Assembly (NCBI GenBank): GCA_020072645.1
Contig: JAIQGK010000017.1
Location: forward strand, 1-64,000
Length of the DNA stretch: 64,000 bases
Direction of reading: 5' to 3'
Source: Terriglobia bacterium
GTDB lineage: Bacteria > Acidobacteriota > Terriglobia > Terriglobales > Acidobacteriaceae
Within the stretch, counting starts at the first letter, position 1, and each line of letters begins with the position of its first letter. The notes beneath the pieces are model-generated. The model was not told the DNA's origin, ran no database searches, and saw only the letters and a list, made by a program, of their open reading frames with translations. This document shows, piece by piece, positions 21,644 through 61,086 of this stretch. The translations under genes and the position numbers were made by a program.

Positions 21644-22006
21644 TTGAACCCCGACACGATGCAACGCTTCGAAGACGAGTTGCGGCAGGCATTTGACGGC
21701 TCTGTTGTGGCCAACGATGCGAACCGCAAACTGATAAGACTCGCGACCGTGGACTTTCCTGACGGCTGCATTCCTCAGAGATCGGCGGCATTAGTCGTTC
21801 TTGATCCGGCCGCCGACAAACCCGAGTTTTACTTAGCGCAGGTTCCAAGATTGGCCTCCGGCAATCAACCAGCAACGGGCCAAGTAATGGTTGGTGGCGA
21901 GATTTGGAATACTTATTCCTACGCGATCCAGAACTGGGACCAGATCAGAAGCACTGCTGTGCAGTTCGTACAGGCCAAACTTAGGAGATTTGCCCTTGCC
22001 CAATAA
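21644..22006 (+). CDS. E2-like protein of the first Ubl system
   Basis: 120 aa. I choose TTG 21644 because AAGGAG (21629-21634) is 9 nt upstream; an in-frame ATG at 21563 lies inside the Ubl gene and ATG 21659 is far from the site. The core VDFPDGCIPQRSAALVVLD, PEFYLAQVPRL, then GGEIWNTYSYAIQNWDQI resembles the divergent prokaryotic E2 families (Prok-E2_E-like), where a W-x(n)-W segment replaces the eukaryotic C-terminal helices. The only cysteine is Cys42 (DGCIP). No HPN motif. It may be a catalytic E2 with an unusual site or a non-catalytic E2-fold partner. Overlaps the next gene by 11 bp. Confidence 0.7.
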   Translation: MNPDTMQRFEDELRQAFDGSVVANDANRKLIRLATVDFPDGCIPQRSAALVVLDPAADKPEFYLAQVPRLASGNQPATGQVMVGGEIWNTYSYAIQNWDQIRSTAVQFVQAKLRRFALAQ

Positions 22007-23360
22007 AGCTCAAGTGAGAATTCCGTACGACTTGGCCCAACGAATTCGCCAAATTCTCAACGACCCGTGGCTTCATCACGAGCCTGTTGTCTTTGCGTTG
22101 GCGAGCGCGAATCGTACAAATCAATATGCTTTGATTCAGGTGAAGCGGTTAGTGCATGCGCCGGAATCGGCATTCATACCAAGTCTTGGACATGGTGCTA
22201 GGTGGTCGGCACGATGGAACATCGAACTGATGAACCTTTGCGCCGAATCTTCACTTGGTTTGGTTATTTTCCACCGGCATGGCGGTACTCACGTCGCGCT
22301 CTCGAATGATGATCGCGAAAGTGCATCTCAACTGCTGCCATATTTTCAATCATTCGTTCCGGGCCGCTACCACGGCTCAATAGTAATCGGCGACCATTCA
22401 GCAGTTGGTCTGGTATGGTGTCCCGGCTTCAATCACCCGATTGAAGAGGTGGAAGTGCGCTTTTTGGGGTCGCATATTGAAACTCTCGCGAGTAATTCCT
22501 ATAAGCGGGAGGAGTGGGAGGAATTCCAGCGGGTTCCTCTAGCAGAGAATCGCATAAATCGAAAAATTATGCGTAAGGCGAAAGTAGCCGTTGTTGGTCT
22601 TAGCGGCGGGGGAAGCCAGATTGTTACGCAGCTTGCATCATGGGGAATAGGAAACATCATCGGTATAGATCCACAAACCTATGATTTTGAGAACCGACTC
22701 ACTACCGATTGCCCGTGGTTTATTGATCTGACTTGGGGCGCAAGGAAGACGTCAGTTGCAAAGCGTCAATGTTTCTTGGTGAACCGATCTACTAGATTTC
22801 AAGCGATTCCAGCCGAAATTACATCGCCGACCGCGGTCTGCGCACTTAAGACAGCAGATGTCATTGTCGGATGCGTTAACAACCTTCAAGCCCGCGCAGA
22901 TTTGCTGGAAATTGGCGGAAGGTTTGGTATTCCATATATTGATATTGGCTTTAAGATCGTTCTCGGCACTATGCTTGGTGTTTCCGAGCTGAGCTCGTTG
23001 CCGGGAAATGCTTTCACCATCGTTCCTGGCGACTTCTGTCTTTGGTGCACGGGCTTTCTTACGAAAAGCAAATTGGAGAAGGAAGCCGGTGGCGCTGATC
23101 GTTCGTACCTCAACTTGAAATCTCAATCCGAGCACGGAAGTCGAAATGCCTACGTTTCATCCTTCAACGGGCTGCTAGCGGGACATGCCGCAACCGAGGT
23201 TCTCCAATTGCTTCTTGGTTGGCGCCGCGGAACAAGCGGATCTAGATATTATGTGTATAACGGCGTCACGGGTGAAATGCAGCTGTGGGCCGGCAAAAAA
23301 AATGACAAATGCAATCATTGCAACAATGTAGTTCACGCCGGCGACCCGATCTGGAACTAG
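21996..23360 (+). CDS. JAMM deubiquitinase-E1 activating enzyme fusion
   Basis: 454 aa from TTG 21996 (AGGAG at 21983-21987). The N-terminal JAMM/JAB domain (about 1-165) has Glu29 (HHEPVVF) and the exact H-x-H-x7-S-x2-D signature at His93, His95, Ser103 and Asp106 (FHRHGGTHVALSNDD). The C-terminal ThiF/E1 domain (about 190-454) has the glycine loop VVGLSGGGSQ (about 200-208), the acidic GIDPQ (Asp225), ENRLTT and the DVIVGCVNN strand. Two CxxC pairs (348/351 and 439/442) form a probable zinc site. It should adenylate the Ubl C-terminus after the JAMM half trims it. Operon: Ubl, E2-like, this gene. Confidence 0.88.
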   Translation: MPNKAQVRIPYDLAQRIRQILNDPWLHHEPVVFALASANRTNQYALIQVKRLVHAPESAFIPSLGHGARWSARWNIELMNLCAESSLGLVIFHRHGGTHVALSNDDRESASQLLPYFQSFVPGRYHGSIVIGDHSAVGLVWCPGFNHPIEEVEVRFLGSHIETLASNSYKREEWEEFQRVPLAENRINRKIMRKAKVAVVGLSGGGSQIVTQLASWGIGNIIGIDPQTYDFENRLTTDCPWFIDLTWGARKTSVAKRQCFLVNRSTRFQAIPAEITSPTAVCALKTADVIVGCVNNLQARADLLEIGGRFGIPYIDIGFKIVLGTMLGVSELSSLPGNAFTIVPGDFCLWCTGFLTKSKLEKEAGGADRSYLNLKSQSEHGSRNAYVSSFNGLLAGHAATEVLQLLLGWRRGTSGSRYYVYNGVTGEMQLWAGKKNDKCNHCNNVVHAGDPIWN

Positions 23361-50224: not shown

Positions 50225-51325
50225 ATGGATCCTATAGTCATCACTAACCAAGAAGTTGCTAAGGCGCAGATTCCAATTCAGGGTGCGCAGGAAGTCCGCC
50301 CCAAAGTGCCGAACCCAGTCCCTTTGTGGACGCGCCTGCTATTTGTTCCGCTGGTTCTCGTGTTGCCGCTGCTGTGCCTTGCTGCTCTGATCATGCGCAT
50401 CGCCACGCGCGGCCAGGCGCCGCGTATCCGGCAGACATGGGCTTCGTATCTTCTTACGTTGCTTATCATTAGCGGCATCTTGTCCACGGTTGCGGCGGTC
50501 TTTACCATTTCACTCGATAGCGTTCCGGTGCCAGATGCCATCAGTTCGTCTCTCTCTGATCTGGACGAGCGTGGCAATTTCCCGTCACTGCCTGCGGGAA
50601 AAGAAATGTCCAGCGTGGAGTTAAGTTCGACGTTGAAGCCTCTGGTGCTTCTGGCTTCGCCTTCTGCCAAGCGCTGGTTCCAGCCGACCGCCGGAGTTTC
50701 CGGCCTTCTGGGCGCGGCCATGATCCTGCATTCTGATTCGCATGGCTACCTGCTGGCGACAGCGCGTCACGTGGCCGATGGTGAAAACTGGCGCACCCGC
50801 ACAGGTCCGCAGAAAGTAATGGTCTCCGTGGGCATGAACGGCTGGGCCTCAGCGCAGGTGGTTGGCCGCCACAAACATCTTGATGTCGCCCTGCTCTGGC
50901 TGGAGCGCCACTATGGCGATGCGGAATTCACCCAGCCCGTTGCGACTTACGGCAGCGTGCAGATGGGCGAGAAGATTTTTGTCATCGGCCATCCAGAAGG
51001 CCTGAATTTTTCCGTGAGCAACGGAATTGTTTCGCGCACGCCGGGCAATGACGTGTTGCAGGTTTCCGCGCCCATTAGCCCCGGCAACAGCGGCGGCCCG
51101 GTCTATGACGAATTTGGCAACCTGCTCGGCATCGTTACCTCCAAGGTAGCGCGCTCCATGGAGCCGGAAGCCGAGAACCTGAACTTCGCGGTGAGCACGG
51201 ACGCTCTGCTGCACGAATCTGACTGGGACTTTGTGGCCGGCGGAAGCGCGCCACGGAACCTGCTCGCGGATTTTGTTCACCAGGCCAAAGTGCGCAAAGT
51301 GCCCATGACCTCGGCTGCCCGATAG
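50225..51325 (+). CDS. Membrane-anchored trypsin-like serine protease heading the Ubl operon
   Basis: 366 aa. Two membrane helices (about 35-58 and 74-96) precede a chymotrypsin-fold domain (about 155-345) with a complete triad: His182 (ATARHVADG), Asp220 (HKHLDVALLW) and Ser289 (SPGNSGGPVYDEFG). This is the HtrA/S1C-like arrangement without a PDZ domain. With two helices, both termini are probably on the same side, and the catalytic side cannot be fixed by eye. It lies 13 bp upstream of the Ubl gene and is the first gene of a coupled run of nine. It may degrade or process modified membrane proteins. Confidence 0.88.
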   Translation: MDPIVITNQEVAKAQIPIQGAQEVRPKVPNPVPLWTRLLFVPLVLVLPLLCLAALIMRIATRGQAPRIRQTWASYLLTLLIISGILSTVAAVFTISLDSVPVPDAISSSLSDLDERGNFPSLPAGKEMSSVELSSTLKPLVLLASPSAKRWFQPTAGVSGLLGAAMILHSDSHGYLLATARHVADGENWRTRTGPQKVMVSVGMNGWASAQVVGRHKHLDVALLWLERHYGDAEFTQPVATYGSVQMGEKIFVIGHPEGLNFSVSNGIVSRTPGNDVLQVSAPISPGNSGGPVYDEFGNLLGIVTSKVARSMEPEAENLNFAVSTDALLHESDWDFVAGGSAPRNLLADFVHQAKVRKVPMTSAAR

Positions 51326-51338
51326 GAAAATCTCAAAC

Positions 51339-51614
51339 ATGGCTAACATAACTGTTACTGTTTACGATTCAACGGAAAACAAGCGCGTGCCGGTGGAGCT
51401 GCCGGATGACGCTCCGGCCAATCGCATCATCGCCGTGCTGGTGGACAAGCTGCAGTTGCCGCAAAACGGCCCAGACGGCGCTCCGCTCAGCTATAAGTTC
51501 CATCACAAAAATTCAGGCCGCCAGATACAGGATTCGCAAACCCTTTCTGACGCTGCCGTAAAAGAAGGCGACATTCTTCGCCTGCAGCCGGAAATCACCG
51601 CAGGAGCACGATGA
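51339..51614 (+). CDS. Ubiquitin-like protein of the membrane Ubl system
   Basis: 91 aa. Beta-grasp pattern: ITVTVYDSTENKRVPVELP (first hairpin), NRIIAVLVDKLQLPQ (helix), LSYKFHHKNSGRQIQDSQTL, then VKEGDILRLQPEITAG as the last strand, like YukD/EsaB and ubiquitin. It ends TAGAR, so it lacks a free Gly-Gly; trimming two residues would expose Gly89. The JAMM protease two genes downstream is the natural candidate. It overlaps the E1 gene by 4 bp, supporting stoichiometric coupling. Confidence 0.85.
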   Translation: MANITVTVYDSTENKRVPVELPDDAPANRIIAVLVDKLQLPQNGPDGAPLSYKFHHKNSGRQIQDSQTLSDAAVKEGDILRLQPEITAGAR

Positions 51615-52822
51615 GCAAGTCTGTGGCATCGCTGAACGGCGGCGGAACGGCTTCCGCGGGTGAAGACAGGTTCAGCCGCTTTCGTCTCATCGGCTGGTGG
51701 GACCAGGAAAAGCTTCGTTCGGCACGCGTGCTCGTGATCGGTGCGGGCGCGCTCGGCAATGAGATTCTTAAGAACATGGCGCTGCTCGGCTTCGCCAACA
51801 TTGTGGTGGTCGATCTCGATTCCATTGAAGCTTCCAATCTCTCCCGCAGCATTCTTTATCGTGCGTCAGACGTAGGCCGCCGCAAAGCTGATGTTGCCGC
51901 CGATGCCGTCAGAAATATTTTTCCTGAAGCCCGCGTTCACGCAATTACCGCTAACGTGGTCCACGGTCTTGGGCTGGGACTGTTCGCCTGGGCCGACATT
52001 GTGATTGCAGGACTCGATAACCGTGAAGCGCGGCTATGGATCAATCGTGCCTGCTGGAAGATGAACAAGCCGTGGATAGACGGCGCTATTGAAGGCATCA
52101 ACGGCGTGGCCCGCGTTTTCAAAGCCGGACAGCCGCCTTGTTATGAATGCACGCTCGGTGAAACGGATTGGGCCATCCTGAACAAACGCATGTCATGCAA
52201 TCTGTTGGCATTGGAAAACGATACTGAAGGCAAAGTCGCCACCACGCCCACCATCTCTTCCATTATTGCCGGATTGCAGGTGCAGGAAGCGGTGAAGTTG
52301 CTGCATGGGCTGCCGGTTCTGGCAGGGAAGGGCTTCATTTTTGAAGGTCTCAACCACACCTCTTATAAGGTTGAATACACTGAGAACCGTGATTGCATGA
52401 GCCATTACACCTTTTCTGAAGTGATCCGGCTTCAGGAAACTTCGCGCGATCTCTCTCTGGCCCAAATGCTTGACCGCGCCCGGCTCGATCTTGGATCAAA
52501 AGACGTTGCGCTTGAGTTCAGCCGCGACGTGATTCACAAACTTGCGTGTCCGGGCTGCGGCGCGGAAGAAGAATTGTTTGCCGCTGTGGGCACCGTACCT
52601 TATGCAAAAGGCAAATGCGCCGCCGATGGCCAGATGCGCGCCGTGATCACCGCGCACGGATATTCCGGCCACGAACCTTTCGGCAACCGCACTCTGGATC
52701 AGCTCGGTCTTCCGCTCTTTGACGTGGTTACGGCCCGTTCGCCCGAACGCGAGATTGCCTACTTGATCGGCGGTGATGAAAAACAGGTGCTAGGACAGAG
52801 CGCGATGGGAGCGGCACGCTGA
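51611..52822 (+). CDS. E1-like ubiquitin-activating enzyme (UBA3-like)
   Basis: 403 aa. ThiF/E1 Rossmann domain: VLVIGAGALGNEILKNMALLGF (glycine loop 44-49), VVVDLDSIEASNLSRS (acidic loop and the Asn/Arg nucleotide motif), VGRRKADVAA, then DIVIAGLDNREARLWIN. The segment from there to about residue 235 follows eukaryotic UBA3 unusually closely (GLDN..ARLWIN, ID...EG..G.ARV...G..PCYECTL, MSCNLLA, TTPTISSIIAGLQVQEAVKLL). Cys196 in RMSCNLLA aligns with the UBA3 catalytic cysteine region (MCTIAS). CxxC pairs at 177/180 and 313/316 form a probable zinc site. It should adenylate the Ubl and carry it as a thioester to the E2 at 56537. Confidence 0.93.
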   Translation: MSKSVASLNGGGTASAGEDRFSRFRLIGWWDQEKLRSARVLVIGAGALGNEILKNMALLGFANIVVVDLDSIEASNLSRSILYRASDVGRRKADVAADAVRNIFPEARVHAITANVVHGLGLGLFAWADIVIAGLDNREARLWINRACWKMNKPWIDGAIEGINGVARVFKAGQPPCYECTLGETDWAILNKRMSCNLLALENDTEGKVATTPTISSIIAGLQVQEAVKLLHGLPVLAGKGFIFEGLNHTSYKVEYTENRDCMSHYTFSEVIRLQETSRDLSLAQMLDRARLDLGSKDVALEFSRDVIHKLACPGCGAEEELFAAVGTVPYAKGKCAADGQMRAVITAHGYSGHEPFGNRTLDQLGLPLFDVVTARSPEREIAYLIGGDEKQVLGQSAMGAAR

Positions 52823-53712
52823 TGCCTAAGCCGGCCAAAGTCAAGGTCAGGGTCTCCACCCAGCCTGTAGTGGTGATGGAGGCGGAAGTCGCGCGCAAAA
52901 TCCGCCAGCACGCCCGTACGTCAATGAAGGCAGAGGTTTGCGGCGTGCTGATCGGCAATACTGAGCATGAGCGCATGACGGTGGAAGCCTGCATCGCCGG
53001 CATCAATGCCGCGCAGGGCGGCGCTCACGTCACCTTCACCCAGGACACCTGGGAACATATATATAAGATCAAGGACAAGGAATATCCGGACGACAAGATT
53101 GTCGGTTGGTATCATTCGCATCCTGGCTTCGGCGTGTTTCTCTCCGAGCACGATCTGTTTATCCAGCAGAATTTCTTTTCCAATCCTCAGCAGGTGGCAT
53201 GGGTTTACGATCCGCACACGGACGAAGAAGGCTGCTTCGGCTGGATCGGCGGCAACATTGAAAAGCTTTCCGCCATTCGCGTGGGCTACTCTCAGGATGT
53301 TGAGATTACCGGCACAGCGGCCCGGGAATATGAAGAAGACGATAATGGCGGGTCTTTGGACTCCATGGTTCGTACCGATCAAGATCAAAGATCCGCGGAA
53401 CCGGCATGGATGAAGTGGACGACGCGGGTTCTGGGCTATCTGGCAATCATGCTTTTGGGACTGGTGTCCGGGTACATGCTGCGGAACTGGCAGGTATCGC
53501 CCGTGCTGGATTCTTACCAGCAGATCATGAATCACCCACTTGAAGCGTGCCGCATCCTGCTCACAATGGATCCGGAGCGAAATGGAATAGTGGCGGCCCC
53601 ACAAGTTCCGCAGCAGGATTCACCTCAGCAAACCCAGCCTCAGCAATCGCCACAACAGCAAGCTCCGCGGCAGAAAGCTCCTGAGGCAAAAGGAAACAAT
53701 GGCAAGCACTGA
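52822..53712 (+). CDS. Membrane-anchored JAMM isopeptidase (Rpn11/CSN5-like)
   Basis: 296 aa, starting in a TGATG overlap with the E1 stop. MPN+/JAMM domain (about 15-165): Glu38 (AEVCGVLIG) and VGWYHSHPGFGVFLSEHD, with His98, His100, Ser108 and Asp111 matching H-x-H-x7-S-x2-D. The surrounding GWYHSHPGFG is the form found in eukaryotic Rpn11 and CSN5. A single membrane helix (about 203-220, LGYLAIMLLGLVSGYML) and a Gln/Pro-rich tail follow. It is predicted to mature the Ubl and remove it from targets at the membrane. Overlaps the FHA gene by 14 bp. Confidence 0.93.
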   Translation: MPKPAKVKVRVSTQPVVVMEAEVARKIRQHARTSMKAEVCGVLIGNTEHERMTVEACIAGINAAQGGAHVTFTQDTWEHIYKIKDKEYPDDKIVGWYHSHPGFGVFLSEHDLFIQQNFFSNPQQVAWVYDPHTDEEGCFGWIGGNIEKLSAIRVGYSQDVEITGTAAREYEEDDNGGSLDSMVRTDQDQRSAEPAWMKWTTRVLGYLAIMLLGLVSGYMLRNWQVSPVLDSYQQIMNHPLEACRILLTMDPERNGIVAAPQVPQQDSPQQTQPQQSPQQQAPRQKAPEAKGNNGKH

Positions 53713-54763
53713 CGACAAACCGACGCTAAAGATTACGCTGGAAGACCTGGCCAGCGTAGAAATGCCGGCAGCCACCCCCGCCGGAAACATGGCGCCTGTT
53801 GCAGCCGGAACCAAACAGTATGGCAACATCGCGGCCCCTGCCGATGGTCCTGCAATGGTAACGGAAGAGAAAGGCAGCATCTTTTTACAGGGGTGGTTCT
53901 ATCTTGGCATTGCTGGGATGCTTGGCGCACTTGCCGGCTGGGGCATCTGTGAGCCTTTTTTCATTGATTCACGTGCCGGGATCCGCTGGGGAAACATCGT
54001 CATTCTCCCCTTAGTCGTCATGTTTACTTGTCTGGGCCTTGGAGTGGCGGAAAGCATCGTTGAACGCTCTGCAAAAAAAGCCATGGTTCGTGGTTTGCTT
54101 GGCCTGGCGCTTGGACTGGTGGGCGGTTTCATCTTTGACTGGATTGCGAACATATTTTTTGCCGTCGGTACGGCGATTCTCTTTTCGCTAGGCGTCCAGA
54201 CGGCAAAGAATCCCGCTTTCTGGATCGTCCGCGGCCTCGCATGGGCCGTTTTCGGCGTTGCCGGAGGAATTATCTACGGCTTGGTGGACCGCTCCATGAC
54301 CAAGACGAAGTACGGAATTTTCGGCGGACTGATTGGCGCTGCGTTGGGCGGCATGGTCTTCGACCCCATCAGCTTTGCCACTAAAACCGGCGGAGTGAGC
54401 CGCGGCGTTGGCTTTGCGCTGCTCGGGCTTGCCACGGGCGTTGCCATCGGCATTGTTGAAAGCGCCCTTAAAGACCGCTGGCTTTATGTGGCTTCGGGAC
54501 CGCTGGCGGGTAAGCAATTCATCCTTTATAAGCCGATCACCACCATCGGCAGCAGCCAGTCGTCCGACATTTATCTCTTCAAGGACACCAGCATTCTTCC
54601 TCAGCATGGCATCATCGAATTGCGTGGCGCGCAGACGTTCATCCGTTCTGATGCGCCGGTATTTGTTTCCGGAGCGCCAGCGCGCAATCGCGCATTGCAA
54701 AGCGGAGATCTTATCCAGATCGGGCGGTATGCGTTTCACTTTCGCGAAAGGCAGAGGAATTAA
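53699..54763 (+). CDS. Polytopic membrane protein with a divergent FHA domain
   Basis: 354 aa. N-terminal segment with LKITLEDLASVEMPA (9-23), about seven or eight hydrophobic segments (65-255) rich in Gly, and a C-terminal FHA-like domain (about 262-350). The FHA core reads TTIGSSQSSDIYLFKDTSILPQHGIIEL. The Arg that normally follows the first Gly (GR) is Ser, and the Ser of S-x-x-H is replaced, so phosphothreonine binding may be lost or altered. The N-terminal motif recurs in the RING-like protein encoded next. Probably a membrane scaffold for the system. Confidence 0.82.
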   Translation: MASTDDKPTLKITLEDLASVEMPAATPAGNMAPVAAGTKQYGNIAAPADGPAMVTEEKGSIFLQGWFYLGIAGMLGALAGWGICEPFFIDSRAGIRWGNIVILPLVVMFTCLGLGVAESIVERSAKKAMVRGLLGLALGLVGGFIFDWIANIFFAVGTAILFSLGVQTAKNPAFWIVRGLAWAVFGVAGGIIYGLVDRSMTKTKYGIFGGLIGAALGGMVFDPISFATKTGGVSRGVGFALLGLATGVAIGIVESALKDRWLYVASGPLAGKQFILYKPITTIGSSQSSDIYLFKDTSILPQHGIIELRGAQTFIRSDAPVFVSGAPARNRALQSGDLIQIGRYAFHFRERQRN

Positions 54764-55398
54764 TGGCCGAGCCTGTCTGCCCCTATTGCCGCATGCCGTT
54801 TGACGAGGCTTCTCCGCCGCGGATTTTCTGCACCGCCTGCGGTATGCCGCATCATGAAGATTGCTACCAGGAAAATGGCGGCTGCACCGTCTTCGGCTGC
54901 AAGCGCGCCCCCGCCGACGAACCTAAGGTGCAGGTTGCGCTCAGCGATTTAAGCGCCGTCTCGGTACCGACCCAGCAGTATGCTCCTGTTGCGCAGCAAT
55001 ATGCCCCTGTGATGCAGCAGCCGGCTCCGGTACAAGGCTATCAACCATCGCGCTACAGCGGGCCGCTCGGCTTATCGCAGGCGTCCGCTACAGCGCCCGC
55101 ACAGGCTCCAGTCGCCACGCCAAGTCCTGCGGCATACTCGTATGCTGCGCCGGTAAATTCTTCTGCTGCGCCGGCCTATGGCCCCACACACAAGAGCCGG
55201 ACAAGCTACATTGTTCTTGGCATTTTTCTCGGCGGACTTGGAGTTCACAATTTTTATGCCGGATACACCGGCCGCGCGGTCGGACAACTCTGCCTTACGG
55301 TTTTGACGCTTGGTTATCTCGGTATTGTTTCGTGGATATGGGCCATCATTGAAATCTGCATCGTGGAAAAGGACAGCACCGGCCTGCGTTTTAGCTGA
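54763..55398 (+). CDS. RING-like zinc finger fused to a TM2 domain, candidate E3
   Basis: 211 aa, starting in a TAATG overlap. Residues 6-46 hold eight ligands, C6 C9 C23 C26 H31 (or H30) C34 C41 C46, a C4HC3 cross-brace pattern like the prokaryotic RING family 1 (CPYC, CTACGMPHHEDCY). A linker (47-145) repeats QQYAPV and includes VQVALSDLSAVSVP (57-70), similar to the FHA protein's N-terminus. The C-terminal TM2 domain (about 147-205) has LGIFLGGLGVHNFYAGYTG, two membrane helices. RING-like fingers next to E2 genes usually act as E3 ligases; activity here is inferred. Confidence 0.85.
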   Translation: MAEPVCPYCRMPFDEASPPRIFCTACGMPHHEDCYQENGGCTVFGCKRAPADEPKVQVALSDLSAVSVPTQQYAPVAQQYAPVMQQPAPVQGYQPSRYSGPLGLSQASATAPAQAPVATPSPAAYSYAAPVNSSAAPAYGPTHKSRTSYIVLGIFLGGLGVHNFYAGYTGRAVGQLCLTVLTLGYLGIVSWIWAIIEICIVEKDSTGLRFS

Positions 55399-55413
55399 GT
55401 GACTGGGTGAAGA

Positions 55414-56142
55414 ATGAAATATTACATTCAGCGCGAACTCAATGAGTATGGCCCTTATACTCTGGCCGATCTCCAGCGCTACGTCGCGCAGGGAAGCATT
55501 TTGCCAACTGACCTGACGCGCAGCGAGGGCATGACGGAGTGGACGCCCGTATCGCAAGTCATCGGCAACATTCCCATTCCTGCACCCATCCAGCCTGGGT
55601 ACGCGGCTGGCACACCGGCTTACGGTGAAGGGACCGTTTACGCGGGTGGCGGCAATGCTTACGGTGCGCAAGGCGCTATGCCTGCGGTGACCACAGGTCC
55701 CGTACCGCCAGATTTTCATTGGGCGCTGGTCCTGCTGATCTCTTTCTTTTGTGGTTTCTTTCAAATCGTGTGGCTATTCGTCGAAGCCGGCTTTGTGAAA
55801 AAGCTTGATCGGGAAGGCAAGTCGCTGGCCTTCCTGATTGGCGGCATAGTTACTTCAATAGTAGCTTTTATCGTTTTCTTCACGGCTGCGAGCGCCAATC
55901 GCCAGGAACCCCCGACATTGGCCCTCGTCTCGTTTCTTCTTATCGCTCTCGCAGGAGCCGTGTTGCACCTGATCGGAATTTTTCAGATGCGTAGTTCGAT
56001 TGAAAATTATTACAACACTACGGAACCAATCAATCTGCGGCTGAGCGGAGTGATGACATTCTTTTTCGCGGTGTATTACTTTCAGTACCATTTCACACGT
56101 ATCGCCAACTGGAAGAAAACGGGGTATTTACCGACACAATGA
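55414..56142 (+). CDS. GYF_2-domain polytopic membrane protein
   Basis: 242 aa. N-terminal GYF_2 domain (about 1-55: YYIQRELNEYGPYTLADLQRYVAQGSILPTDLTRSEGMTEWTPVSQV), a fold that binds proline-rich peptides. A Pro/Gly/Ala linker (about 56-105) and four membrane helices (about 106-130, 140-165, 170-190, 210-230) follow. The proline-rich linkers of the RING-like and JAMM proteins in the same operon are plausible ligands. It overlaps the DUF2752 gene by 4 bp. Confidence 0.83.
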   Translation: MKYYIQRELNEYGPYTLADLQRYVAQGSILPTDLTRSEGMTEWTPVSQVIGNIPIPAPIQPGYAAGTPAYGEGTVYAGGGNAYGAQGAMPAVTTGPVPPDFHWALVLLISFFCGFFQIVWLFVEAGFVKKLDREGKSLAFLIGGIVTSIVAFIVFFTAASANRQEPPTLALVSFLLIALAGAVLHLIGIFQMRSSIENYYNTTEPINLRLSGVMTFFFAVYYFQYHFTRIANWKKTGYLPTQ

Positions 56143-56531
56143 AAATGAATGCCAAATTTCGGGCGCATATTTCCGCCGTAGGACTGTTGGCCGGGTTCGG
56201 TGTGCTATACACCTTCCCTCCCACTGAACATTCTTTTTATCCTCGATGTTTGTTTTATGCTCTTACTGGTTTGCAGTGCCCCGGATGCGGAGGCACGAGG
56301 GCGCTCTATCATCTGCTCCATTTCGACTTCAGTGGGGCCATACGATATAACGCGTTGGTGACCGTACTTATACCGATGGTTTTGACTTGGTTTATTTTCT
56401 GGTATACCTCGGTGATATTTCGCGGCCATGCACCTGATCTCCGAATTTCACGTCCGATAGCCGTTTGTTTGTATCTCATTGTTTTGTTTTTCGCCGTTGC
56501 CAGAAATGGCGCATTTTCTTTCTTGAGTTGA
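56139..56531 (+). CDS. DUF2752 membrane protein
   Basis: 130 aa. Family hallmark CPGCGGTRALYHLLHFDFSGAIRYN (about 48-72) between hydrophobic segments (about 10-28, 76-98, 105-122). The CxxC may bind metal or be redox-active. DUF2752 proteins are small inner-membrane proteins of unknown function, often near GYF_2 and TM2 proteins. It lies between the GYF_2 and E2 genes. Confidence 0.88.
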   Translation: MKMNAKFRAHISAVGLLAGFGVLYTFPPTEHSFYPRCLFYALTGLQCPGCGGTRALYHLLHFDFSGAIRYNALVTVLIPMVLTWFIFWYTSVIFRGHAPDLRISRPIAVCLYLIVLFFAVARNGAFSFLS

Positions 56532-56536
56532 TCTTC

Positions 56537-57133
56537 ATGTTGTCACCCAGAATCCGCCGGCTAAAACTCGATCACGATTCTTTGTTCAAGCGCTTCTCCG
56601 GATGGCCGTTGATCCGCATTGTGGGCACCGCCGGAATGCCGCCGGAACTGTATCGCTTTCAGTATCTGGTGCGCGGTTTATATGTGGCCCCTGATGGCGC
56701 CATCCTGGAGCGCAACGATCATTTGCTGGAAGTAAATCTTTCTCTGGGATATCCGCGGCGTGCGCCACAATGCCGCATGCTCACGCCGGTCTTCCATCCA
56801 AATTTTGATGACAGTTCGGTCTGCATCGGCGATTTCTGGGCCGCTTCAGAGTCTCTGGACGATCTTATTATTCGCATTGGCCGAATGATTTCGTATCAGG
56901 AGTACAACACCAAGAGCCCATTAAATGGGCTGGCGGCAAAATGGGCCGCGCAGAACTCAAGCTTGTTGCCGGTCGATCCTCGCCCTATCGCTCCGCCACT
57001 CGACCAGCCGATGGTGGAACCAGGTTTGCCAACACCCGCGTCGCCGCAAGCCGCCGCTGCTTCCATCCCTCAGGCTGCCGCTTCTGTTCCTGATGGTGAG
57101 GACCCATGGGAACAGAAAATCGTGATTTCGTAA
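56537..57133 (+). CDS. Canonical E2 ubiquitin-conjugating enzyme-like protein
   Basis: 198 aa from ATG 56537, 5 bp after the DUF2752 stop; a TTG further upstream would run through that gene. UBC fold: LLEVNLSLGYPRRAPQCRMLTPVFHPNFDDSSVCIGDFW has His87-Pro88-Asn89 and catalytic Cys96 seven residues after Asn, as in eukaryotic E2s. It continues with SLDDLIIRIGRMISYQEYNTKSPLN, equivalent to the LxxLLxxPNPxDPLN segment. A Pro/Ala-rich C-terminal tail (about 145-190) could bind the GYF_2 protein. It would take the Ubl from the E1 and work with the RING-like protein. Last gene of the operon. Confidence 0.93.
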   Translation: MLSPRIRRLKLDHDSLFKRFSGWPLIRIVGTAGMPPELYRFQYLVRGLYVAPDGAILERNDHLLEVNLSLGYPRRAPQCRMLTPVFHPNFDDSSVCIGDFWAASESLDDLIIRIGRMISYQEYNTKSPLNGLAAKWAAQNSSLLPVDPRPIAPPLDQPMVEPGLPTPASPQAAAASIPQAAASVPDGEDPWEQKIVIS

Positions 57134-57528
57134 CAGCAGGCATGATTTTCCCCGCCTGACAAGCCATTGCGCGAGATCTTTTATCGCCAGGACAAAGTGC
57201 CGTTTACCGCAGTCCTTCACATGGCTTGAATCCGAGTGACTTTCACTGAAAACCGAAAAAGTTACAGAAATCCTATCTTTCTTTTGCGCCGCTTTCCCAT
57301 TTCCGCATTCCGGATTTTTTGGGATTTATTCTCCGCCCTCATGTTACGGATGCTAAGCTCCAGCACGCTTAGCCGACTTCCTGGCTTGTTCTCTCCGCCA
57401 GAAAGACGAACGATCATCATAACGCTGGACTTTCAGTGTGGCGAAAATTGCTCCTTTTCATACCGGCTTCCTCTGTTCATCTGGATTCGACAGACGCAGC
57501 ACAACCCAACAAAGATGAGGTCACAGAA
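57134..57528. other. Gap between the Ubl operon and the EXORDIUM-like genes
   Basis: 395 bp, no gene supported. Its last 66 bp (57463-57528) form the leader conserved before all three EXORDIUM-like genes (CCGGCTTCCTCTGTTC, then GACAGACGCAGCA, then GAGGTCA before the start). No clear terminator for the Ubl operon was found. Confidence 0.45.
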
Positions 57529-58533
57529 ATGACGTTTCCCCAGGGAAAAATTAAAGTTGTATCTATTTTTTTCTTTTTGATTTTGGCTGTGAGCTTTATG
57601 GCCGCGCAGCAGCTCAACCAGCATGTTGACAATCCGGGACAGACAGCCGACAAGGCTCCCACCGGCCACGTTCCCAACGTTCTTCCAACAACCATAGAGC
57701 CTGCTAAACCCGGCCCCATTGGTCAGGCCGTGGTGACCGGCAATGGCATCAATTATCACAACGGTCCGGTCATGAAAGGCAATCCTGTCCATGCTTACAT
57801 TATCTGGTATGGCAACTGGAGCGGCACGGGATCGAATACGGCTGCGACCAGAAGTCTGATCGAGCATTTTCTCGGCAGCATCGGCGGATCGAATATAGAA
57901 AAAGTCAACACCACCTATGGCGATACCACCGGCAACGTGAGCGGCAATGTTTCCTTTGCCGGCAGCACAATCGTCAGCAGTTCAACGAATTTAACCGATT
58001 CGAGCTTGCAGACTACAGTCAGCAATGCGCTGAACAGCGGAGCCTTGCCCCGCGACTCCAATGGCGTATATTTTGTACTAACCTCTTCAAACATTAATGA
58101 GACCTCAGGCTTCTGCACGCAATACTGCGGTTTTCATACCCGCGCCTCCTTGGGCGGCGTCGATATTAAATATTCGTTCGTCGGCAATCCTGATCGTTGC
58201 CCCAGCGGCTGCGAAGCCCAGACGACCGGCCCCAACAGCCCTGCAACGGGCGTTGGCGGCGCGGACGGCATGGCAAACGTGATGTCGCATGAATTGGAAG
58301 AGGCAATTTCCGATCCTGACTTGAACGCCTGGTTTGATTCGAGCGGACAGGAAAACGCCGACAAATGCAATTTCAATTTCGGCGCTCTTTCCACCTGTAC
58401 ATCCACCAGCATTTGCAGCGCTGCCGCAAAAGCTGCCGGCTCAAGGTTCAACCAGACCTTTGGCAACAACGACTGGCTGCTGCAACAAAACTGGAGAAAT
58501 TCCGGTGGCGGCGCTTGCGCGCAGCACCTGTAA
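57529..58533 (+). CDS. EXORDIUM-like (phosphate-induced 1 family) secreted protein 1
   Basis: 334 aa from ATG 57529. Signal peptide to FMAAQQ. Family pattern of PF04674: VHAYIIWYGNWSGTGS, VNTTYGDTTGNVSG, FCTQYCGFHT, FVGNPDRCPSGCEAQ, GADGMANVMSHELEEAISDPDLNAWFDSSGQENADKCNFNFG. Plant EXORDIUM proteins are apoplastic growth regulators of unknown enzymology; bacterial homologues are secreted. HELEE fits HExxE and could bind metal. This copy has an extra Cys/Ser/Thr insert near 290 (STCTSTSICSAAAKAAG). First of three tandem paralogues. Confidence 0.88.
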   Translation: MTFPQGKIKVVSIFFFLILAVSFMAAQQLNQHVDNPGQTADKAPTGHVPNVLPTTIEPAKPGPIGQAVVTGNGINYHNGPVMKGNPVHAYIIWYGNWSGTGSNTAATRSLIEHFLGSIGGSNIEKVNTTYGDTTGNVSGNVSFAGSTIVSSSTNLTDSSLQTTVSNALNSGALPRDSNGVYFVLTSSNINETSGFCTQYCGFHTRASLGGVDIKYSFVGNPDRCPSGCEAQTTGPNSPATGVGGADGMANVMSHELEEAISDPDLNAWFDSSGQENADKCNFNFGALSTCTSTSICSAAAKAAGSRFNQTFGNNDWLLQQNWRNSGGGACAQHL

Positions 58534-58910
58534 AACAAACTTAAATTTGTGGGCCGCCCGCTCCTGGCGGCCCCTTATTCCACTTTAGAAAGCGCCACTG
58601 CTGGCGAATTATGCGGGAAGTTGCTTGTAATGGGAAAACAAAACATGGCTGGATTGCCGGCCTGCCGATGCTTTGAAAGCCGCATATTTGGCGCATAAAA
58701 GCGGCTTAATTGTGATTGTGCTCAGCTGAATCTCGTGGTACGATTCCGGACATTCTGTTCTGCTCGATTCCGGGGGGCCGCGAATCAGAAATCAGTATCA
58801 GTCAATTCAATTTATTTCATGAGAATCGTCCGAATAATTTATTCCGGCTTCTTCTGTTCATTTCATATTCAACAGACGCAGCAACTCTTTGACATCGAGG
58901 TCATTCACAA
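58534..58910. other. Gap between EXORDIUM-like genes 1 and 2
   Basis: 377 bp without a gene. The last 67 bp (from CCGG at 58844) repeat the conserved leader (GGCTTCTTCTGTTC, CAACAGACGCAGCA, GAGGTCA). A promoter for gene 2 is likely here. Confidence 0.45.
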
Positions 58911-59888
58911 ATGAAAGCTCCTCTTGGAAAATTTAGATACGCGTTAGCTCTTCTCTTCATCCTGTTGGCCGCGAACTTCGTGATGGCGCAGTCGGTACTT
59001 CACCCATCAGTTCCTTCCGGCGACAGGATGGTTCCAAATGGTGACGGTACTGCTGCCGCAGTTGCGGCTGGTCCTATTGGCCAGGCTGTAGTCACAGGCA
59101 ACGGCATCAACTACAACGGCGGCCCGGTACTGAAGGGCAGTCCGGTCCCGATCTACATCATCTGGTACGGAAACTGGAGCGGCACAGGATCGAACACTGC
59201 AGCCACTCAAACCCTTCTCCAGGGGTTCCTCTCGAGCACGTCTCTGGGCGGCTCCAACTATGAGGCGATCAATACCACGTACGGCGATACCACTGGAAAC
59301 GTGAGCGGCCATCTGAATTTCGTCCAGGCGGTCTCTGACACTGGCTCGCAGGGAACACGGCTCAGGAACAGCAACATCACCGCGGCCATTTCCGCCCAGT
59401 TAACTGCTGGCCATCTGCCGACCGATCCTAACGGCATCTATATCTTTGCAACCTCCTCGAACGTCAAGGAAAGCGGATTCTGCACCCAGTTCTGCGGTTT
59501 CCACACCCATCAGACGATCAACGGCGCCGATATCAAGTGGGCGTTCATCGGCAACACTGACCAGTGCCCCAGCGGCTGCGAAATCCAGGCCACCGGCCCC
59601 AACAGCCCGGCAACTGGCGTAGGCGGCGCGGACGGAATGGCCAATGTGATGACACACGAAACAGAAGAAGCCATCACTGATCCCGATCTCAATGCCTGGT
59701 TTGATTCCAGCGGTAATGAAGATGCGGACAAGTGCAACTTCAAGTTCGGTCCTACGCAAATTGCGCCCAACGGCTCTAAGTTCAACCAGACCTTTGGCGG
59801 CCACAATTGGATGATCCAGATGGAATGGGAAAACAGCCGCGGCGGCGGTTGCGATCAGGTTCTTGGCGGAGCATTCTTTACCAGCTAG
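58911..59888 (+). CDS. EXORDIUM-like secreted protein 2
   Basis: 325 aa. Signal peptide to FVMAQS. Same domain as its neighbours: VPIYIIWYGNWSGTGS, INTTYGDTTGNVSG, FCTQFCGFHTHQTINGADIKWAFIGN, QCPSGCE, GADGMANVMTHETEEAITDPDLNAWFDSSGNEDADKCNFKFG. HETEE keeps the HExxE pattern. Closer to copy 3 than to copy 1 (shared GSQGTRLRNS, FGGHNWMIQMEWENSRGGGCDQ). A perfect terminator follows, so it is an independent transcript end. Confidence 0.9.
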   Translation: MKAPLGKFRYALALLFILLAANFVMAQSVLHPSVPSGDRMVPNGDGTAAAVAAGPIGQAVVTGNGINYNGGPVLKGSPVPIYIIWYGNWSGTGSNTAATQTLLQGFLSSTSLGGSNYEAINTTYGDTTGNVSGHLNFVQAVSDTGSQGTRLRNSNITAAISAQLTAGHLPTDPNGIYIFATSSNVKESGFCTQFCGFHTHQTINGADIKWAFIGNTDQCPSGCEIQATGPNSPATGVGGADGMANVMTHETEEAITDPDLNAWFDSSGNEDADKCNFKFGPTQIAPNGSKFNQTFGGHNWMIQMEWENSRGGGCDQVLGGAFFTS

Positions 59889-59906
59889 TTCTATCTTTAC
59901 GGAAGG

Positions 59907-59935
59907 GCCGTCCGGTTCGCCGGACGGCTTTTTTA
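59907..59935 (+). terminator. Intrinsic terminator of EXORDIUM-like gene 2
   Basis: GCCGTCCGG (59907-59915), loop TTCG, CCGGACGGC (59920-59928), then TTTTTT. A 9-bp perfect stem with a UUCG tetraloop. Confidence 0.95.
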
Positions 59936-60126
59936 TTCCGGAGCCAGAGATCGCCATGATTCCTGGCTGAGTTGCCGCTCCATAACCAAGGGAGTACACT
60001 TCTGAAACACCAGCCAACCGGCTGATGGGCTCGTGGAGTGCGGTTTCCAATGCCCATTCATATAATTTCCGGCTTCTTCTGTTCGTTCGTCCAACAGATC
60101 GCAAATCCCTTACTAGTGAGGTCAGC

Positions 60127-61086
60127 ATGGTAGCTCCCCTTGGAAAGGTAAGATTTCTGGTTTTTCTTTGTGTGATCTTGTCCGCCAGTTTCCTGATGGC
60201 GCAAAAAGTACGAGAACAGCAAGCTGGCCCGGGCGAGAAAATGGCCCCTACAGGTGACGGTCATGCCATTACCGTCCCTGCCGGTCCAACTGGACAGGCC
60301 GTGGTTACTGGCAACGGCATGAACTATAACGGCGGACCGGTCCTGCACAACACCGTTCCTATTTACATCATCTGGTACGGAAACTGGAACGGTACCGGCT
60401 CGAACACTCAGACCACCGTGAGCCTGATTGACACCTTCATCGGAGGGTTGAGCAACAGTGGCTACGAGAAAATCAATTCCACATATGGCGACAATGCGGG
60501 CAATGTCAGCGGCGCCATGACCCTGGTCAAGCAGGTCTTTGATACCGGATCACAAGGTACAAGGCTGCGAAACAGCAGAATCTCAGCGGCTATTTCCGCC
60601 CAGCTCACCAGCGGCGGTTTGCCTACAGATCCTAACGGCGTGTACCTCTTCCTGAGTTCGTCGAACGTCAAAGAGAGCGGATTCTGCACCCAGTTCTGCG
60701 GATTCCACACTCACCAGACTCTTAACGGCGCCGATATAAAATGGGCTTTCATCGGCAATGTTGACCAATGCCCATCAGGCTGCGAAATTCAGTCCACCGG
60801 GCCGAACAGCACCACCGGAAGTGGCGGAGGCGCTGATGGTATGGCCAACGTGATTGGCCATGAGACGGAAGAAGCCATTTCCGATCCCGACCTGAATGCC
60901 TGGTTTGACTCGGCCGGAAATGAAAACGCCGACAAGTGCAACTTCCGCTTTGGCACAACTCAAACCGCTTCAAACGGAGCCAAGTTCAATCAAACCCTTG
61001 GGGGAAAGAACTGGATGATTCAGATGAACTGGGAGAATAGCCGGGGAGGTGGTTGCGACCAGACCCTGGGTGGAACGTTCCAGTAA
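60127..61086 (+). CDS. EXORDIUM-like secreted protein 3
   Basis: 319 aa from ATG 60127, with the conserved leader (60069-60126) and GAGGTCAGC just before the start. Signal peptide to FLMAQK. Same hallmarks: VPIYIIWYGNWNGTGS, INSTYGDNAGNVSG, FCTQFCGFHTHQTLNGADIKWAFIGN, QCPSGCE, GADGMANVIGHETEEAISDPDLNAWFDSAGNENADKCNFRFG. Near-identical terminator to copy 2. Confidence 0.9.
   Translation: MVAPLGKVRFLVFLCVILSASFLMAQKVREQQAGPGEKMAPTGDGHAITVPAGPTGQAVVTGNGMNYNGGPVLHNTVPIYIIWYGNWNGTGSNTQTTVSLIDTFIGGLSNSGYEKINSTYGDNAGNVSGAMTLVKQVFDTGSQGTRLRNSRISAAISAQLTSGGLPTDPNGVYLFLSSSNVKESGFCTQFCGFHTHQTLNGADIKWAFIGNVDQCPSGCEIQSTGPNSTTGSGGGADGMANVIGHETEEAISDPDLNAWFDSAGNENADKCNFRFGTTQTASNGAKFNQTLGGKNWMIQMNWENSRGGGCDQTLGGTFQ

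Follow-up and report, generated by a model that had tools for sequence, protein, structure and literature searches.

A bacterial operon that probably encodes a conserved, functional ubiquitin-like conjugation system linked to the membrane

The DNA analysed in this work is a stretch of 64,000 nucleotides (the window) from the Acidobacteriota genome of a Terriglobia bacterium (assembly GCA_020072645.1, contig JAIQGK010000017.1, positions 1 to 64,000), and its positions 50225-57133 hold an operon of nine genes for a ubiquitin-like protein (Ubl), its conjugation enzymes and several membrane proteins. All nine lie on the forward strand, to which all window coordinates refer. The operon begins with a trypsin/HtrA-like serine protease of type S1 (50225-51325; Pfam Trypsin_2, 2e-20), followed by a YukD-type Ubl of 91 amino acids that ends in ITAG-AR (51339-51614; YukD, 7e-14), an E1 of the ThiF fold with a C-terminal zinc-binding part (51611-52822; ThiF, 2e-56), and a JAMM protease whose domain is followed by one membrane segment (52822-53712; JAB, 1.5e-15). 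The next genes encode a six-helix membrane protein with a C-terminal FHA fold (53699-54763; FHA, 6e-6), a RING-like zinc finger combined with a TM2 membrane hairpin, which is a candidate E3 (54763-55398; Prok-RING_1, 3e-7, and TM2, 1.7e-12), a GYF_2 domain protein with three or more membrane segments (55414-56142; GYF_2, 6e-11), a small DUF2752 membrane protein (56139-56531; DUF2752, 1e-19), and an E2 of the UBC fold with H87-P-N, Cys96 and a proline-rich tail (56537-57133; UQ_con, 1.6e-8).

The Pfam matches of all nine proteins exceed the curated cut-offs and agree with the gene families named in the initial annotation, which was made by a model from the letters alone; among the NCBIfam matches listed for the nine proteins, none is above the cut-off. 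The same annotation described genes in one orientation with gaps of 15 base pairs (bp) or less and five overlapping junctions out of eight, and the coordinates of the open reading frames (ORFs) bear this out: the overlaps are 4 bp (Ubl-E1), 1 bp (E1-JAMM), 14 bp (JAMM-FHA), 1 bp (FHA-RING) and 4 bp (GYF-DUF2752), and the gaps are 13 bp (S1-Ubl), 15 bp (RING-GYF) and 5 bp (DUF2752-E2). The ORF of the E2 opens at a TTG at 56465, but its start is most likely the ATG at 56537, since homologue alignments begin at the residues encoded from there and the numbering Cys96 fits that start only. Within the genome, YukD and UQ_con each match once, in both cases in the operon, and there is one match to the proteasome fold.

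For the comparison with other genomes, genome contigs were scanned with an E1 alignment, which yielded at least 593 stretches, at least 503 of them relatives, and the best 80 were taken. After two duplicates and one locus without a called E1 had been dropped, the comparison set consists of 97 loci: the window, 77 loci that came out of the scan and 19 taken from whole genomes. Residue counts refer to the best match per locus, and many contigs in the set end within the locus.

The catalytic residues of the core enzymes are strongly conserved in this set. In the E1, the candidate thioester cysteine Cys196 (codon 52196-52198) is kept in all 97 loci, as are G44, G46, G49, D68, D70, R79, K92 and D136; C177, C180, C262 and H265 are also present in 97 of 97, and C313 and C316 in 92. 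The second zinc pair of the E1 reads C-x-x-D in the window and in two other loci (L016 and L017) and C-x-x-C in four (L018-L021). The best solved relatives of the E1 are UBA7/UBA1 (2e-30), and its NCBIfam scores are 142 bits for ThiF, 124 for MoeB and 90 for Ube1. We do not claim that this E1 is closer to eukaryotic E1 enzymes than to MoeB/ThiF, as the E-values in the PDB favour such a relationship but the NCBIfam scores do not.

Among the best E2 matches (n=68), the HPN motif keeps its histidine in 67, its proline in 68 and its asparagine in 64, and the catalytic cysteine is present in 67; the best solved relative of the E2 profile is UBE2B (1e-14). The JAMM protein carries H98-x-H100-x7-S108-x2-D111 in the window, and the two histidines, the serine and the aspartate are found in all 81 loci with this gene and the glutamate in 80; its best solved relative is RPN11 (8e-11). 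The ligand-type residues of the RING-like finger in the window are C6, C9, C23, C26, H30/H31, C34, C41 and C46, and the corresponding nine columns (with H30 and H31 counted separately) are conserved in 46-62 of 65 cases. Thus, the motifs claimed in the initial annotation (E1 Cys196, E2 HPN and Cys96, the JAMM residues and the C4HC3 pattern of the RING-like finger) are present, the relatives retain the E1 and E2 cysteines whose loss it had named as counter-evidence, and every core step of conjugation is represented by a protein, from Ubl, E1 and E2 to RING-like and JAMM, with conserved catalytic residues. Nine loci, mostly of Planctomycetota, hold an E2-like protein that lacks the cysteine, in which HPN is followed by serine or glycine in eight and is altered in others. 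Eight of these nine loci (L093, L096, L098, L101, L105, L107, L108 and L117) also hold an E2 with the cysteine, and the contig of the ninth, L103, ends just upstream of the E1; the cysteine-less protein may act like a ubiquitin E2 variant (UEV) or RWD partner.

The Ubl is 90-98% identical to those of five relatives, the first relative being identical. It has one ubiquitin-like domain, and its Gly89 (codon 51603-51605), the proposed mature C-terminus, is invariant in 11 of 11 aligned Ubls; a profile of these 11 finds ubiquitin in the PDB and places position 89 on ubiquitin Gly76. With a list of anchored glycine motifs drawn up after inspection of the tails, 87 of 89 standalone Ubls match, 38 of them ending exactly at the glycine and 49 continuing with a variable tail of 1-25 residues. 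The anchored endings are PEITAG (52), PEIVAG (17), NTRGG (7) and others, and the two unmatched Ubls have VVAG at the equivalent place, ending there or continuing after it. As far as can be read from sequence, this is the pattern of a conjugated modifier that is sometimes made as a precursor. Two loci (L100:12351-13211 and L114:12366-13268) encode a natural Ubl-E2 fusion, in which the TAG is internal, each next to a free-standing Ubl whose last residue is the glycine. The available text of one report describes an archaeal Rpn11 that removes a nine-residue propeptide from pro-ubiquitin (PMC5654768), and by this analogy the JAMM protease likely processes the tail of the operon Ubl.

The Ubl is also far more conserved than its enzymes, much as ubiquitin is. 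Within 16 close loci chosen for this comparison, it is more identical than the E1 in 120 of 120 pairs, and the same holds against the E2 (105/105), JAMM (120/120), FHA (120/120) and S1 (105/105) proteins. At the codon level, the Ubl genes of the window and of L017 differ silently at 30 of 91 codons, and 2 codons change the residue.

The initial annotation placed membrane helices in the protease, JAMM, FHA, RING/TM2, GYF_2 and DUF2752 proteins, which hydropathy, the Pfam TM2 match and an AlphaFold model support. By hydropathy, the window proteins have two segments at the N-terminus of S1, one in JAMM, three in GYF, two in DUF2752 and one in RING/TM2, the last in addition to the Pfam TM2 hairpin. 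The AlphaFold model of the FHA protein has six long helices before the FHA fold (pLDDT, the model confidence, 78), while residues 1-58 lie below pLDDT 50 and include a short helix at 14-18. The S1 protein has the triad H182, D220 and S289, of which His and Asp are kept in 29 and Ser in 30 of 31 loci; in two loci, L068 and L069, it has one membrane segment. The FHA fold matches OdhI and GarA in the PDB. A conserved Gly-Arg in the phosphate pocket is the rule for FHA domains that bind phosphothreonine; at this site, 32 of 44 proteins, that of the window included, have Gly-Ser, 3 have the arginine, 2 a lysine and 7 a gap. Because serine takes the place of the usual arginine, it is doubtful that the FHA protein reads phosphothreonine.

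The gene order recurs in other genomes, which indicates that the cluster is not due to chance. Of the genomes in the same genus, three contain the nine-gene set in order and a fourth contains it up to a contig end, so that the operon type occurs in five of nine genomes, the present one included; one genome has a different E1-Ubl-E2-JAMM locus instead, and three have no E1 match at 1e-40. Shorter and divergent E1-Ubl-E2-JAMM loci occur in the genus and the family (L021:8070-10546 and L050:8265-10728), with a Ubl that ends in EGG plus two residues. In a sample of the phylum, 15 of 396 genomes, our own included, have an E1 match at 1e-40. The genes found in the 97 loci are Ubl in 91, JAMM in 81, an E2 with cysteine in 66, RING in 60, FHA in 44, S1 in 31, GYF in 15 and DUF2752 in 8. 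The five-part core (Ubl, E1, E2, RING-like and JAMM) is found in 47 loci; 26 of them also have FHA, 21 have both FHA and S1, and 6, all of Acidobacteriota, have the whole set of nine genes. When the count is confined to the 61 loci whose flanks measure 3 kb or more upstream of the E1 and 6.5 kb or more downstream of it, these numbers are 38, 21, 18 and 5, respectively, and all of the 12 closest loci with that flank have the core, FHA and S1, 11 of them with GYF and 5 with DUF2752. Hence, the conserved synteny predicted in the initial annotation is found, and the linkage of the core to membrane genes is conserved in relatives; the nine-gene combination that it emphasized is confined, as a whole, to those six loci. 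A search of 459 same-strand ORFs for further conserved operon genes gave no cluster present in more than 6 loci.

The record titles of the relatives, mostly metagenome-assembled genomes, name Acidobacteria, Planctomycetota, Verrucomicrobia, Armatimonadetes, Chloroflexi, Bacillota, KSB1, Riflebacteria, Nitrospira, Deltaproteobacteria, Bacteroidetes and others. The cultured species Edaphobacter aggregans carries all but one of the nine genes. In an E1 tree of 96 rows, the window groups with its genus, inside Acidobacteriota, and the sister clade (100/98) consists of rows titled KSB1, Verrucomicrobia and Deltaproteobacteria.

Outside their folded domains, unrelated membrane proteins of the operon share a short motif, approximately K-[IL]-x-[IV]-[TS]-x-x-[DE]-[LV]. 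In the window, it occurs as IVITNQEV in S1 (residues 4-11, before the first membrane segment; 50234-50257) and as LKITLEDL in the disordered N-terminal tail of the FHA protein (residues 10-17; 53726-53749), and the linker of the RING/TM2 protein contains the motif-like VQVALSDL (residues 56-63; 54928-54951), which is one change off, with alanine where the scored pattern, [IVLF]x[IVLF][STGND]xx[DE][LIVF], wants S, T, G, N or D. This pattern matches 37 of 44 FHA tails (mean 1.1 and maximum 6 in shuffled sequences), 22 of 32 S1 tails (mean 0.2, maximum 3) and 21 of 78 RING surroundings (mean 1.0, maximum 5). Since the pattern was derived from the FHA tails and from S1 and RING of the window, the FHA count is no independent test, and it was 29 with a tail window of 75 residues and reached 37 with one of 120; the S1 and RING counts of the other loci are nearer to an independent test, but the loci are related to each other. 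Of the 10 S1 proteins without the motif, 8 have a tail of fewer than 20 residues. With the narrower tail window, FHA and S1 motifs are both found in 15 of the 26 loci with FHA and S1, and motifs in FHA, S1 and RING in 9 of the 24 that also have RING.

As controls, the pattern occurs in 11 of 447 flanking N-termini (11.3 expected) and in 4 of 153 further ORFs that have a tail ahead of a membrane segment (2.1 expected). These four matches include two same-strand ORFs between JAMM and S1 in L068 and one opposite-strand RING-like protein of L097; the two ORFs (L068:4425-5883) are membrane proteins that start with the motif and are candidates for further members of the system. The consensus of 59 matches, K-I-R/V-I-T-x-E-D-L-x-x-V, suggests a strand leading into a capped helix. 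In the window, the E2 has a strand-like C-terminal end, KIVIS (57116-57130), and among E2 tails of at least 15 residues (50 of 78 E2 proteins), 44 end in a hydrophobic-x-hydrophobic pattern (shuffle mean 11.9, maximum 22), compared with 130 of 447 flanking proteins (134 expected). Matches of the eight-residue motif itself in 18 of these 50 E2 tails were not counted because, by eye, they are mostly the conserved end of the E2 core.

We consider it probable that the motif is an operon-wide docking element. In five loci with Ubl, E1, E2, JAMM and RING where FHA and S1 were not found (L095, L123, L126, L127 and L130), the motif stands beside the RING, which suggests that its partner should be a core protein; in two others with the same core (L102 and L118), the strict pattern was missed. 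The simplest guess for the partner is the Ubl, although only tentatively so.

From gene content, motifs, conservation and linkage, the pattern of the Ubl tails and the existence of the shared motif, we infer the following chemistry and topology. JAMM, or the S1 protease, would trim the short tail of the Ubl and expose Gly89, which the E1 would adenylate before holding the Ubl as a thioester on Cys196 and handing it to Cys96 of the E2. The RING-like/TM2 protein would then place the charged E2 at the membrane, where lysines of membrane or membrane-near proteins would be tagged, and the membrane JAMM would take the tag off again. The membrane proteins with FHA fold, GYF and S1 domains would form the receptor and output side, gathered by the docking motif, whose partner would probably be a soluble core protein, most simply the Ubl, as with SUMO-interacting motifs (SIMs). 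The parts of this proposal differ in strength: that the Ubl is covalently conjugated is very likely, that the system acts at the membrane is quite likely, and that the operon is a self-contained, membrane-anchored conjugation cycle is likely as well, if slightly less so. Taken together, the evidence points to a conserved membrane-linked Ubl conjugation system that is probably functional. As to its physiological role, we prefer quality control of membrane proteins or regulated membrane proteolysis, which is a tentative assignment. A more specific version must be called speculative: SIM-like motifs on S1 and the FHA protein, in the RING/TM2 linker and in the E2 tail would bind the hyperconserved Ubl, free or conjugated, which would scaffold a membrane complex of ligase and protease in a tag-and-cleave pathway resembling endoplasmic-reticulum-associated degradation.

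Several observations weigh against parts of this proposal. The Ubl profile recovers single ubiquitin chains with an E-value of only about 0.001; polyubiquitins score far better because their domain scores add up. B. subtilis YukD was reported not to be conjugated, according to the portion of the source at hand (PMC1779556). The E1 tree requires 9 changes of the combined S1 and FHA label, and the full set occurs in 6 of 97 loci, from which it follows that the membrane part is not obligatory and that its components were gained or lost more than once; the core is the wider unit, to which membrane proteins are added variably. The motif is absent from the C-terminal parts of JAMM (0/104) and from GYF linkers (0/15), and is found in 2 of 104 JAMM N-terminal parts. 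In an AlphaFold model of the natural Ubl-E2 fusion of L114, the C-terminal tail is disordered (pLDDT below 50), so that this model does not support docking on the Ubl. Finally, the loop between the two membrane segments of S1 has a charge of +2 to +5 in the close loci with two segments, and by the positive-inside rule this favours a protease and N-terminal tail outside the cell membrane, which speaks against a cytosolic partner for the motif in S1.

The rival explanation that survives best is an anti-phage defence system like Bil, CBASS-Cap2 or Bub: the Ubl would be attached to phage proteins or to sensor proteins, with the membrane proteins serving as effectors. Bacterial E1-E2-JAMM operons of known role (Bil and CBASS) are defence systems in the accessible text of two reports (PMC11354881, PMC13373217), the operon is patchy within its genus, as described above, and PADLOC matches its E1 and JAMM genes (E1-E2, BilD and JAB models). 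These matches are, however, no more than partial. A search of viral contigs with exact peptide patterns of the E1 gave one pattern match and no relative, phage records gave no relative at 1e-20, and plasmids gave a single partial match at 1e-30, 36% identical. Ten window genes outside the operon were also compared with PADLOC; nine have no match and one, a ThiF gene, has weak E1-E2 matches. A Pfam scan of ten flanking genes identified a flavin mononucleotide (FMN) oxidoreductase, an AsnC regulator and Phi_1 genes, and the oxidoreductase flank is kept within the genus. CapW, CapH with CapP, and CapK with CapS are often reported beside Bub operons in the part of the source available (PMC13373217); the flanks here were covered by that Pfam scan, with no search aimed at those proteins. 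Defence is an unlikely explanation, and it is plausible that the operon is not a defence cassette, as the initial annotation had proposed.

The remaining rivals concern the chemistry. The Ubl belongs to the YukD family, and with the B. subtilis result cited above it might be an assembly factor that acts non-covalently, the role proposed for YukD in the export of ESAT-6, with E1, E2 and JAMM acting on something else; the genome has no WXG100 (PF06013) match at 1e-3, and the conserved terminal glycine with its removable tail and the constant linkage to E1, E2 and JAMM make this very improbable. Equally slight is the chance that the acceptor is a lipid or other non-protein membrane molecule, as with ATG8: many operon products are membrane proteins and RING is found in only 60 of 97 loci (in part because contigs end early), but the E2 keeps HPN and matches Rad6-type E2s. 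The least probable rival is a sulfur-carrier pathway (ThiS/MoaD with MoeB/ThiF), for although the best NCBIfam scores of the E1 are with the ThiF and MoeB models, the operon has E2 and RING-like genes and no rhodanese or cofactor gene among its nine, and a ThiF-rhodanese gene beside a JAB gene sits elsewhere in the genome.

Covalent conjugation at the membrane, the reading we prefer, can be set beside several known systems. The operon of Caldiarchaeum subterraneum likewise clusters genes for E1, E2, a small RING, an Rpn11-type JAMM and a Ubl made as a precursor whose tail can be removed (PMC5654768); its Ubl ends in di-Gly, whereas that of the window ends in ITAG, and S1, FHA, TM2, GYF and DUF2752 are not named in the available text of that report, whereas JAMM and RING are membrane proteins here. 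The bacterial operons of Iyer et al. 2006 (rows 6a-6e) also bring Ub-like, E1-like, E2-like and JAB genes together, but in the accessible part of that paper FHA is not mentioned, 'RING' occurs three times, and YukD is placed with ESAT-6 export and not with E1/E2 (PMC1779556). Bil (BilABCD) shares Ubl, E1, E2 and a JAMM that exposes the C-terminal glycine of the Ubl; as described in the portion available (PMC11354881), BilA has two ubiquitin-like domains instead of one, the active site of BilB is C-E-H-H, whereas here HPN precedes C96, with A at +6 and S at +8, and neither a RING-like protein nor a membrane module is named. The YukD proteins of type VII (ESAT-6) secretion have the same Pfam domain as the operon Ubl but differ in neighbours and in the Ubl C-terminus. 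In a literature search of listings and abstract openings, no description of the nine-gene combination, the membrane module, the Ubl tail counts or the shared motif was found; Burroughs et al. 2011 and the primary Bub and Bil papers lay outside the reach of that search. Burroughs et al. 2011 reportedly predicted bacterial RING-E1-E2-JAB-Ub neighbourhoods, which probably comes closest to a description of the core. The conjugation core is of an already known, predicted kind.

One survey stated, in its accessible text, that a complete ubiquitin toolkit was missing from every bacterial genome it analysed (PMC4327156), and complete ubiquitin operons are mentioned for some bacteria in the available part of another report (PMC5654768). 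In the present data, a core of Ubl, E1, E2, RING-like and JAMM recurs with a membrane module across several bacterial phyla, mostly in metagenome-assembled genomes. If the Ubl is conjugated, bacterial ubiquitination at membranes can be tested directly, including in the cultured E. aggregans, and the system would be a testable bacterial counterpart of a tagging system best known from eukaryotes. The shared motif provides a concrete target for a binding experiment.

Three further observations concern the surroundings of the operon and the rest of the genome. Downstream of the operon, at 57436-61086, lie three consecutive Phi_1 (phosphate-induced protein 1) genes (2e-23 to 6e-25), a family familiar from plants and unusual in a bacterium. 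At 21891-23360, the window encodes a second, different ThiF-domain protein of 489 amino acids (ThiF at residues 226-475, 4e-21) with weak PADLOC E1-E2 matches. On contig 22 of the same genome (L022:5449-7267), a Prok-JAB gene adjoins the ThiF-rhodanese gene mentioned above and forms with it a separate E1/JAB pair.

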